Source: Candidatus Poribacteria bacterium (GTDB taxonomy: Bacteria > Abyssobacteria > SURF-5). From it: a DNA stretch of 18,403 nucleotides. Positions 7,536 through 17,683 of this stretch are shown one piece after another. The first letter of the stretch is position 1. Every line of letters begins with the position of its first letter. Location of the stretch: the NCBI GenBank assembly GCA_016215705.1, contig JACRIR010000008.1:1-18403 (forward strand). The letters run 5' to 3'. The notes under the pieces are model-generated. The model searched no databases. It saw nothing but the letters and a program-made list of their open reading frames with translations, and was not told where the DNA came from. The position numbers were made by a program, and so were the translations under genes.

Positions 7536-7575
7536 AACAAAAGCCCCGCATCTGATTAAACAGACGCGGGGGCTT
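7533..7575 (-). terminator. Rho-independent terminator after cold-shock gene 1
   Basis: Minus strand: a GC-rich stem (AAGCCCCCGCGTCTG against CAGATGCGGGGCTT, with one mismatch or bulge and one G-U) and a 6-nt loop, followed by TTTTGTTTTA. It lies about 25 bp beyond the stop codon and abuts the end of the truncated methyltransferase frame. Confidence 0.88.
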
Positions 7576-7598
7576 GTGCGCATTAGTCTATGGAGAGC

Positions 7599-7799
7599 TT
7601 AGAGTTTCTCCACGTTCTCTGCCTTCAGACCTTTCGGCCCGTTGACCGTCTCGAAGCGAACGCGATCGTTTTCGGAGAGCGTCTTGAAACCGCTTCCCTG
7701 AATCGACTGATGGTGTACGAACACATCCGGTCCGCCGTCTTGAGTTATGAAGCCATAACCTTTTTGGTCATTAAACCACTTCACTGTTCCTTCCGGCAT
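7599..7799 (-). CDS. Cold-shock protein (CspA family), copy 1
   Basis: A 66-residue single CSD/OB-fold protein that binds single-stranded RNA/DNA and acts as an RNA chaperone. RNP1 (KGYGFI) and RNP2 (DVFVHH) are intact. The start is ATG 7799 ([10 protein letters not shown]). A GTG 12 bp upstream is in frame but lies inside the Shine-Dalgarno AAGGAGGTGA and is not used. The gene has its own consensus promoter (7940-7968), a leader of about 130 nt with an internal terminator hairpin (7849-7888), and a second terminator after the stop. It differs from copy 2 (8280-8480) by four residues: Ser/Gly, Val/Ala, Asn/Thr and the last residue Leu/Ile. Confidence 0.96.
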
Positions 7800-7848
7800 T
7801 AGTATTGTCACCTCCTTGGTCTAAATTGAAGTAATGTCCCCTCACAAG

Positions 7849-7888
7849 AAAAAAGTCCGCAAGAGCTAGCAGCAACTCTTGCGGACTT
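7849..7888 (-). promoter_or_regulatory. Intrinsic terminator/attenuator hairpin in the cold-shock leader, copy 1
   Basis: Minus strand: a perfect 13-bp stem (AAGTCCGCAAGAG at 7888-7876 with its complement at 7865-7853), a 10-nt loop, and a run of six T then CTT. This is a textbook intrinsic terminator, but it sits between the promoter and the start codon, about 50 nt before the ATG. An upstream leader segment (7916-7922, CTCTTCG on the minus strand) could pair with the left arm and open the hairpin. The placement implies premature termination unless antitermination occurs. CspA-family proteins are known antiterminators in E. coli, so autoregulation is an inference. Confidence 0.75.
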
Positions 7889-7939
7889 GAGCAAACAGCG
7901 CGATCAACTCACTTACGAAGAGCTTTACTCCTACGCGGA

Positions 7940-7968
7940 AGTATACCACATACCATTGCGGTTGTCAA
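7940..7968 (-). promoter_or_regulatory. Sigma-70 promoter of cold-shock gene 1
   Basis: Minus strand: TTGACA (7963-7968), a 17-bp spacer and TATACT (7940-7945). This is a near-perfect consensus. Transcription should begin near 7933 and give a leader of about 130 nt. Confidence 0.88.
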
Positions 7969-7989
7969 ATGCGCTGGAAGAGAATCGTC

Positions 7990-8205
7990 TTTCGGGTTGA
8001 CAAGATTGAGCCACGGAGGGCATCACGGAGAGAAGCGAAGAAACTGCAAGGTAATCGAAAAGACGGTCTCAAAGGTTAATCCCACCGCCGATGTTGAGAT
8101 TGCTTTGCTCGGGCCTGCATCCCGCTTCGGGCGGGATCGCAATGACTGCGTTATGGAAATCATGTCAGGAATTCGCAATTTGAAATTTAGTAGTACAGTG
8201 TGACG
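7990..8205. repeat. Repeat words and a hairpin repeat between the csp units
   Basis: No gene. It contains 'gccacggagggcatcacgg' words (about 8012-8030) and an element with a stem atcccgc/gcgggat (8119-8125, 8131-8137) inside an outer attgc/gcaat pair (8098-8102, 8139-8143). This resembles common dispersed hairpin repeats of the 'gcatcccgcttcgggcgg' type. Confidence 0.55.
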
Positions 8206-8213
8206 GCTTATGA

Positions 8214-8253
8214 AAACAAAAGCCCCACGTCTGATCGCACAGACGCGGGGACT
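8214..8253 (-). terminator. Rho-independent terminator after cold-shock gene 2
   Basis: Minus strand: stem CCCCGCGTCTG against CAGACGTGGGGC, 6-nt loop, then TTTTGTTTTC. Compared with copy 1 the loop has changed and the stem is kept by G-U tolerance, which indicates a maintained structure. Confidence 0.88.
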
Positions 8254-8279
8254 TGTGCGCATTAGTCTATGGAGAACCT

Positions 8280-8480
8280 TTAGATTTTCTCCACGTTCTC
8301 TGCCTTCAGACCTTTCGGCCCGGTGGCCGTCTCGAAGCGAACGCGGTCGTTCTCGGAGAGCGTCTTGAAGCCGCCTCCCTGAATCGACTGATGGTGTACG
8401 AACACATCCGGTCCGCCGTCCTGAGTTATGAAGCCATAACCTTTTTGGTCATTAAACCACTTCACTGTTCCTTCTGGCAT
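8280..8480 (-). CDS. Cold-shock protein (CspA family), copy 2
   Basis: A 66-residue cold-shock-domain protein with RNP1 KGYGFI and RNP2 DVFVHH. The start is ATG 8480 behind AAGGAGGTGA, by the same reasoning as copy 1. It is 94% identical to copy 1 (four substitutions, none in the RNP motifs). It has its own promoter (8621-8649), its own leader with the attenuator-like hairpin (8530-8569), and its own terminator. Two independently driven copies suggest dosage or differential expression. Confidence 0.96.
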
Positions 8481-8529
8481 AAGTATTGTCACCTCCTTAA
8501 TCTAAATTGAAGTAATGTCCCCTCACAAG

Positions 8530-8569
8530 AAAAAAGCCCGCAAGAGCTAGCAGCAACTCTTGCGGACTT
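8530..8569 (-). promoter_or_regulatory. Intrinsic terminator/attenuator hairpin in the cold-shock leader, copy 2
   Basis: Same structure and position as in copy 1: 13-bp stem (8557-8569 with 8534-8546), 10-nt loop, T-run. The single stem difference from copy 1 changes a U-A pair to U-G, so pairing survives. It lies about 50 nt before the ATG. Confidence 0.75.
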
Positions 8570-8620
8570 GAGCAAACAATGCGATCAACTCACTTACGAA
8601 GAGCTTTACTCCTGGCCATA

Positions 8621-8649
8621 AGTGTAGCACATGTCTCAGCCGTTGTCAA
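8621..8649 (-). promoter_or_regulatory. Sigma-70 promoter of cold-shock gene 2
   Basis: Minus strand: TTGACA (8644-8649), a 17-bp spacer and TACACT (8621-8626). The spacer differs greatly from copy 1 while both hexamers and the spacing are kept. Confidence 0.85.
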
Positions 8650-16956: not shown

Positions 16957-17068
16957 GTCCCTCCTCCTTCAAATACGCGAGTATCTTCTTGACGTCCGCC
17001 GTGGCCGTGAATTTTCTCCGGTCTCTTAGAGTCCGAGCGTCTTCAGAAGCCTGGCTGTCGAATAACAT
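16949..17068 (-). CDS. Possible 39-residue small protein between the PIN and HicB-like genes
   Basis: ATG 17068 to TAA 16949, overlapping the PIN gene's last 43 bases in another frame and the HicB-like start by 8 bases. The C-terminal half reads like a real helix (ATADVKKILAYLKEEGHA) and contains the downstream gene's ribosome site, which would couple translation. It has no clear ribosome site of its own. It may be a coupling peptide, the tail of a lost partner, or chance. Confidence 0.3.
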   Translation of the reverse strand: MLFDSQASEDARTLRDRRKFTATADVKKILAYLKEEGHA

Positions 17069-17457
17069 TCGACGCCGGCGCCGTCGAAGTCCTTGTCATT
17101 CGTCCAGAGGGGAATGCCCAAGTAGAGCGCCAACGCCGGCAGCTCGACGTCATCAGGGTCACGCTTGCCGATCAAGCGGGATGCAGTAGGAATGAATCTC
17201 CTGTACTGGCTGAGCTTGTATTCCGCGATCGCCAGGAGCCGGAATTGCGCCTCCAGAACCTCGCGGGCGATTCCATAGGCCGCCGACATTGTCGGGAGGT
17301 ATTCCCATACCTCTTCGAGTGTGACGGCTGCGGAGACGACATGAACGGCCGATCGAGTAAAGACTTTGAGCGAGGCCTTCCCGATGATGGCCGATAGGAT
17401 GACGTTAGCGTCGGCGACGACGCTTTCTATTCTTTTCCCGCCAGGTTTTGAAGTCAC
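17026..17457 (-). CDS. PIN-domain toxin (VapC-like)
   Basis: A 143-residue predicted metal-dependent RNase. The acidic PIN residues are in place: Asp16 in VVADANVILSAI, Glu48/49 in TLEEVWEYL, Asp100-103 in KRDPDDVELPALAL, and Asp121/123 in TNDKDF. Its GTG start at 17457 lies within the antitoxin gene, overlapping it by 53 bp in another frame. No later start keeps the first catalytic Asp, so the overlap is probably real. The pair forms a two-gene operon with translational coupling, driven from 17702-17730. Confidence 0.9.
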   Translation of the reverse strand: MTSKPGGKRIESVVADANVILSAIIGKASLKVFTRSAVHVVSAAVTLEEVWEYLPTMSAAYGIAREVLEAQFRLLAIAEYKLSQYRRFIPTASRLIGKRDPDDVELPALALYLGIPLWTNDKDFDGAGVECYSTARLLKTLGL

Positions 17458-17683
17458 GCAGGACTCGCTTTTCAGTGACGCCGGCCTTCCGTAAGTTGGT
17501 GGAAACGGCTTCTCCGAGTCGCTCTAATAGTTCCTGTCTCAAATCCACCGGAAGAGCTTGCGGCTCTTTCATTGGAACGACGATGCTCGCGAGTTTCCCA
17601 TGACGGGTGACAAAAACCAACTCTTTGCCGCCAAGAAGCTCCGGCGCTCGATTCCTGAATTCTCGCACTCCGGTCACTTGCAT
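17405..17683 (-). CDS. Phd/YefM-like antitoxin
   Basis: A 92-residue protein starting at ATG 17683, with GGAGGT six bases upstream. The N-terminus (MQVTGVREFRNRAPELLGG, then VFVTRHGKLASIVVPM) is the Phd/YefM DNA-binding fold, which dimerises and represses its own promoter. The C-terminal part (about 45-92) is helical and ends in a basic tail (KNRKRRRRR). Part of that tail is encoded by the overlap with the toxin gene and so is constrained by two frames. It neutralises the PIN toxin encoded directly downstream. Confidence 0.85.
   Translation of the reverse strand: MQVTGVREFRNRAPELLGGKELVFVTRHGKLASIVVPMKEPQALPVDLRQELLERLGEAVSTNLRKAGVTEKRVLRDFKTWREKNRKRRRRR

Follow-up and report, generated by a model that had tools for sequence, protein, structure and literature searches.

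What is an intrinsic terminator doing between the promoter and the start codon of a cold-shock gene? The question arises twice in the window (the whole stretch of DNA analysed, 18,403 nucleotides), where two tandem csp genes, each encoding a 66-aa cold-shock domain protein, both carry a terminator-bearing leader. We read the region as an attenuator that acts in cis on the transcription of cold-shock genes, and we give this reading a probability of about 0.6.

Two tandem csp units and their leaders

All leader and csp features of the window lie on the minus strand (Table 1). The copy A and copy B units form a duplication in register with an offset of 681 bases (window 7544-8649), which includes promoter, leader, gene and 3' terminator. 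For copy A, the first-pass annotation had described a perfect 13-bp hairpin with a T-run between a near-consensus promoter and the csp ATG, and had judged this hairpin as strong as the terminator after the gene. Both statements were confirmed: stem, T-run and promoter are as described, and the predicted energy is -24.5 kcal/mol for the leader hairpin against -21.3 for the 3' terminator at 7571..7544. Nor does its predicted stability fall below that of either terminator 3' of the two csp genes. In a scan of the 2-kb region, 9 sites resembled terminators, where 2.2 would be expected. Judging from the position of the promoter, transcription of copy A probably starts near 7933. The CUCUUCG element of copy A can pair with the terminator's left arm and is also similar to the Csp-binding sequence UCUU. 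The second csp gene with a like leader (promoter to start, 8649..8480) and the recurrence of the leader in other genomes go beyond the first-pass annotation.

Table 1. Positions of promoter, leader, gene and terminator elements of the two csp units in the window
Feature	Position	Strand	Remarks
Promoter of csp copy A, sigma70-type	7940..7968	-	TTGACA-17-TATACT, extended TG; 11/12 consensus
P1 helix, 5' strand GGAGUAA	7925..7931	-	close to predicted +1 (~7933); partner 7828-7834
Predicted antiterminator hairpin, 5' strand CUCUUCG	7916..7922	-	complementary to left arm
Leader intrinsic-terminator hairpin, copy A	7853..7888	-	left arm AAGTCCGCAAGAG (7888-7876), right arm CTCTTGCGGACTT (7865-7853); perfect 13 bp, 16 pairs counted
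U6 tract of copy A leader terminator (T6 in DNA)	7849..7854	-	
P1 helix, 3' strand UUACUUC	7828..7834	-	present in read-through RNA only
Shine-Dalgarno AAGGAGGT, copy A	7810..7817	-	core invariant in A4
csp copy A	7599..7799	-	66 aa, ATG at 7799; Pfam PF00313, E 1.8e-26
Terminator 3' of csp copy A	7544..7571	-	
Promoter of csp copy B	8621..8649	-	TTGACA-17-TACACT
CUCUUCG of copy B	8597..8603	-	
Leader terminator hairpin, copy B	8534..8569	-	one G-U replacing A-U
csp copy B	8280..8480	-	Pfam PF00313, E 1.2e-25
Terminator 3' of csp copy B	8223..8250	-	

Occurrence of terminator-bearing csp leaders in Abyssobacteria and Omnitrophota

Five csp genes are present in the genome from which the window comes (G000, 5.47 Mb). 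The hairpin motif CCGYAAGAGTTN{3,12}CTCTTRCGG has 4 matches in its 5.47 Mb, all in csp leaders, and the reversed control has 0; the fifth csp leader (L005) carries another hairpin with a weaker U-run. With four copies of the motif, every one at a csp gene, a repeat element or a general terminator was rejected as an explanation, and because the promoter sits upstream of the hairpin, the hairpin is not merely the terminator of the upstream gene. The order promoter-terminator-start was found for all ten csp genes of G001 and G002, which belong to the family of G000, and hence for 14/15 csp genes of the three genomes (4/5 + 10/10); a promoter occupies the equivalent place in 15/15 of their csp leaders. 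By the same energy-based terminator detector, which was used throughout, this order was found in 19/32 cases in Omnitrophota (a set sampled by protein), in 3/40 in other phyla and in 1/435 control ORFs of G000. This bacterium of the deep subsurface is little known; in it and in its relatives, nearly all cold-shock genes carry the same RNA stop signal before their coding part, and related leaders occur in many Omnitrophota; the csp genes are therefore probably switched on by polymerase read-through.

The first-pass annotation had proposed a covariance search upstream of csp genes in related genomes, and by such a search the leader does recur. A covariance model built from 12 class I leaders (R2) was searched against 31 genomes, and matches above 32 bits were only those 12 csp leaders; the next-best match, at 31 bits, belonged to a non-csp gene.

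Omnitrophota csp leaders have a similar hairpin (CCGYRAGG..CCUUGCGG followed by U6-8) in the equivalent place. A model of nine leaders of this type (R1; one each from Auribacterota and from a UBP3 contig included) has hits with E <= 0.01 in 162 of the 285 Omnitrophota genomes, and the related leader is also found on csp genes in a few other phyla. Among 98 sense-strand R1 matches examined, 95 immediately precede a gene for a cold-shock-domain protein (94 counted by script, and L198 by eye), mostly at a constant distance from it. In these leaders the 5' end of the mRNA, GUAGUAAAUAA, pairs with UUAUUUACUAU just 5' of the Shine-Dalgarno sequence in a helix, P1, that encloses the terminator. Own P1 partners beat swapped partners in 85/94 Omnitrophota leaders. 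In an alignment fitted to the model, 24 of 26 pairs had two-sided changes (113 cells against 25 in shuffles, a value reached by 0/500 shuffles). Covariation was kept in a structure-blind MAFFT alignment for P1 (10/11 pairs) and for the terminator stem P3 (6/8), so that both helices of this leader, directly 5' of a csp gene, covary. The conserved parts of the leader are the helices and the U-rich stretch.

Several variants were seen among these leaders. In L146 (1501-1475) and others (L149, L168) of Omnitrophota, GUAGUAAAUAA is repeated between the Shine-Dalgarno sequence and the start codon (GUAGUAAAUAAUG), and the P1 3' strand could therefore pair with either copy; for the partner on the start-codon side, own pairs beat swapped pairs in 68/94 Omnitrophota leaders. 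A second switch, at the level of translation, is possible through this repeat. A long form of the leader (L070, L085, L099, L104, L105, L114) adds a hairpin between the U-tract and P1 and has a long helix UUAGAARUCUU/AAGAUUUCUAA, the whole giving a three-way junction. P1, or only the 5' GUAGUAAAUA, is kept without a terminator in L079, L106, L250 and L255 (Omnitrophota), which suggests that leaders can lose the terminator as a module. Hairpins of unrelated sequence with a U-tract stand in the equivalent place in csp leaders of other phyla, L074, L103 (Elusimicrobia), L019, L021 and L056, some of which have a long-range helix; these are possibly independent inventions.

The Abyssobacteria and Omnitrophota leaders agree in layout (promoter, hairpin, Shine-Dalgarno), and both have the CCGYAAG/CUUGCGG core followed by a U-tract, with AGUAA...UUACU as flank. 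Omnitrophota csp leaders are matched in register by R2, the best of them reaching 36 bits (E 8e-5 in 150 kb), partly via the Shine-Dalgarno sequence. R1 gave no match in the whole of G000 at E up to 10; on the window it scores 17 bits, with agreement in hairpin core and position. P1 is strong in Omnitrophota and weak across the window's phylum: in the window it has 7 bp (GGAGUAA/UUACUUC) with a shuffle fraction of 0.04, and for this phylum the evidence is too weak to take it as a proven helix. Taken together, a common origin of the two groups is likely but not proven.

Competing structures and a proposed attenuation model

The attenuators of trp, pyr, T-box and riboswitch leaders rely on an upstream strand that vies with the intrinsic terminator for one of its arms. 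A candidate for such a strand is present near the 5' end of 12/12 class I leaders as CUCUU (once CUUUU), which is able to pair with the AAGAG-type left arm, and its complementarity is kept though its flanks are little conserved. In RNA that ends where the right arm begins, the CUCUU:left-arm pairing is predicted to be dominant (0.67-1.00 at 37 C), and the apical left arm of class I leaders is predicted to be held at 0.64-1.00 against 0.34-0.56 with shuffled upstream sequence. Shuffle fractions for left-arm sequestration in single leaders range from 0.000 to 0.26, and these tests are not independent because the leaders are related. Since CUCUU and AAGAG are almost constant (of their five pairs three vary, on one side only), the pairing is without covariation support. 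Shuffle comparison gave no left-arm sequestration above chance in the class II leaders L005, L124 and L125, and in Omnitrophota sequestration by upstream sequence was below chance (0.05 against 0.17 shuffled); the antiterminator is therefore not general, and for Omnitrophota it was rejected. As to the pairing of 7916-7922 with the left arm, which the first-pass annotation had put forward, CTCTTCG matches AAGAG and the left arm is predicted to be held in every class I leader, whereas the near-invariance of the pairing keeps covariation from proving it, and it is absent in the three class II leaders and in Omnitrophota. A 5'-terminal hairpin (AGAGU/ACUCU), tried as an anti-antiterminator, was discarded at a predicted occupancy near 0 after the left arm is made.

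The terminator becomes the predicted minimum-energy fold only after the emergence of 7-10 nt of its right arm. At equilibrium, the terminator is predicted to be far more stable than the antiterminator (about -35 against about -20 kcal/mol), so any switch must be kinetic.

What the comparisons show is the anatomy of the leader, its conservation, its confinement to csp genes and, for Omnitrophota, the covariation of P1 and of the terminator stem. Together with the competing strand, the layout and this confinement point to transcription attenuation, from which we infer termination in vivo, a switch and its signals as follows. Polymerase would start at the strong promoter and reach the intrinsic terminator about 80 nt downstream, and many transcripts should therefore stop before the coding part. 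In the window's phylum, the nascent leader would first fold the antiterminator, with the 5' CUCUU holding the left arm of the terminator, and the right arm would have to displace CUCUU quickly, before polymerase exits the U-tract. Retention of the antiterminator would give read-through and Csp synthesis, and its opening would give termination. Temperature or Csp protein is a plausible signal, suggested by the csp identity of the controlled gene. In the form that we prefer, cold may slow displacement and thereby raise read-through, and abundant Csp, an RNA chaperone binding UCUU or U-rich RNA, may speed refolding into the terminator and so exert negative feedback; the sign of the Csp effect on read-through is a guess. 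In the read-through RNA, the 5' end may pair with the stretch just 5' of the Shine-Dalgarno sequence (P1), which probably stabilises the mRNA or shapes the ribosome site.

A leader terminator could also act without regulated antitermination, a fixed low read-through tuning the Csp level and a stable small RNA arising perhaps as a by-product. The hairpin is indeed much more stable than any alternative fold, and the Omnitrophota leaders do have the terminator and no antiterminator; but 12/12 class I leaders have kept, between little-conserved flanks, a CUCUU able to pair with the left arm, a weaker promoter would be a simpler way to fixed tuning, and we consider this explanation unlikely. Rather improbable, in our judgement, is a post-transcriptional thermosensor or stability element, in which P1 closes a long hairpin, the U-tract mainly binds Csp in the read-through mRNA and termination is minor. 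The strong covariation of P1 in Omnitrophota, its presence without a terminator in L079, L106 and L250, and the ability of the Omnitrophota P1 3' strand to pair beside the start codon would suit such an element, as would the affinity of Csp proteins for U-rich RNA, CspB having reportedly been crystallised with UUUUUU and with GUCUUUA RNA (cited in PMC7704496). A stem with a run of 6-8 U in canonical order is, however, the signature of an intrinsic terminator, and the weakness of P1 in the window's phylum also argues against it. The order of promoter, hairpin and U-tract would fit a small-RNA gene as well, the terminated RNA then being an independent small RNA and csp being transcribed mainly from a start downstream of the hairpin. 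This is very improbable, as the scan that covers the csp leader (at least 9/12 matches required) detected no promoter in the stretch from hairpin to start codon, and in 95 of the 98 sense matches the element goes with a csp gene, with a spacing that is mostly constant.

The attenuation reading, which the first-pass annotation had also put forward as a candidate, is well supported by comparison: order and hairpin are found on csp genes only, and the left arm is predicted to be held in 12/12 class I leaders. Its further term 'riboswitch-like' is unsupported in the sense of a small-molecule ligand, with no Rfam riboswitch in the window. More tentatively, at somewhat below even odds, the leaders of several phyla may make up an undescribed csp leader family, in which an intrinsic terminator and a competing structure would act as a cold- and Csp-sensing autoregulatory switch, followed in Omnitrophota by a P1 switch at the level of translation.

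Relation to known csp leaders

We know of no natural terminators established as those by which Csp proteins control their own genes. The leader described here resembles the classical attenuators (trp, pyr, T-box and riboswitch leaders) in the competition of an upstream strand with a terminator arm. It differs from them in having no identified leader peptide, ligand domain or binding protein, and in Omnitrophota the competing strand itself is missing.

E. coli cspB and cspG are known to undergo premature, Rho-dependent termination at their 5' ends (PMC7815308), and the cspA-family leaders of E. coli and Salmonella are Rho-dependent switches (Delaleau et al. 2024, as cited in PMC12350095). Those switches are alike in stopping transcription prematurely in the leader of a cold-shock gene, but they use Rho, whereas a canonical intrinsic hairpin and U-tract are found here. 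The cspA thermoregulator RF01766 is likewise a long structured csp leader; unlike the leader here, its model contains no leader terminator as seen in the alignment. Neither RF01766 nor another Rfam leader matched the window above its gathering score (Rfam 15), and the Rfam search of the window and relatives returned only a coding-driven cspA match and a tRNA. A borderline RF01766 match in the relative L114 was rejected, being carried by the coding part while the leader aligns poorly. The cspB and cspC genes of B. subtilis also have regulatory leaders, with cold-shock boxes in or near which the cspC leader mutations lie; unlike here, the accessible part of that source describes no leader terminator (PMC8307031).

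The claim of the first-pass annotation that no such csp leader had been described held in Rfam and in the accessible literature, where our search, with subscription journals mostly outside its scope, found no description of intrinsic terminators in csp leaders. As far as we could check, the principle of attenuation is old, and the RNA and its location are new. Csp proteins act as antiterminators in E. coli (PMC12562117; PMC9765468), and CspB and CspD of B. subtilis are reported to favour termination at some terminators (PMC8307031), so that action on terminators has been shown in both species with opposite signs. Csp autoregulation by attenuation can be tested directly on the roughly one hundred covarying leaders, in each of which an intrinsic terminator immediately precedes a csp gene. 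That enterobacteria use Rho and these phyla intrinsic terminators suggests that a stop of transcription in their leaders is a solution at which csp genes have arrived repeatedly.

Elsewhere in the window, two small adjacent ORFs at 17026-17683 resemble a PIN-type toxin and an antitoxin, and ORFs at 870-2892 look like genes for a PII signal protein and for an ammonium transporter, in glnK-amtB order.
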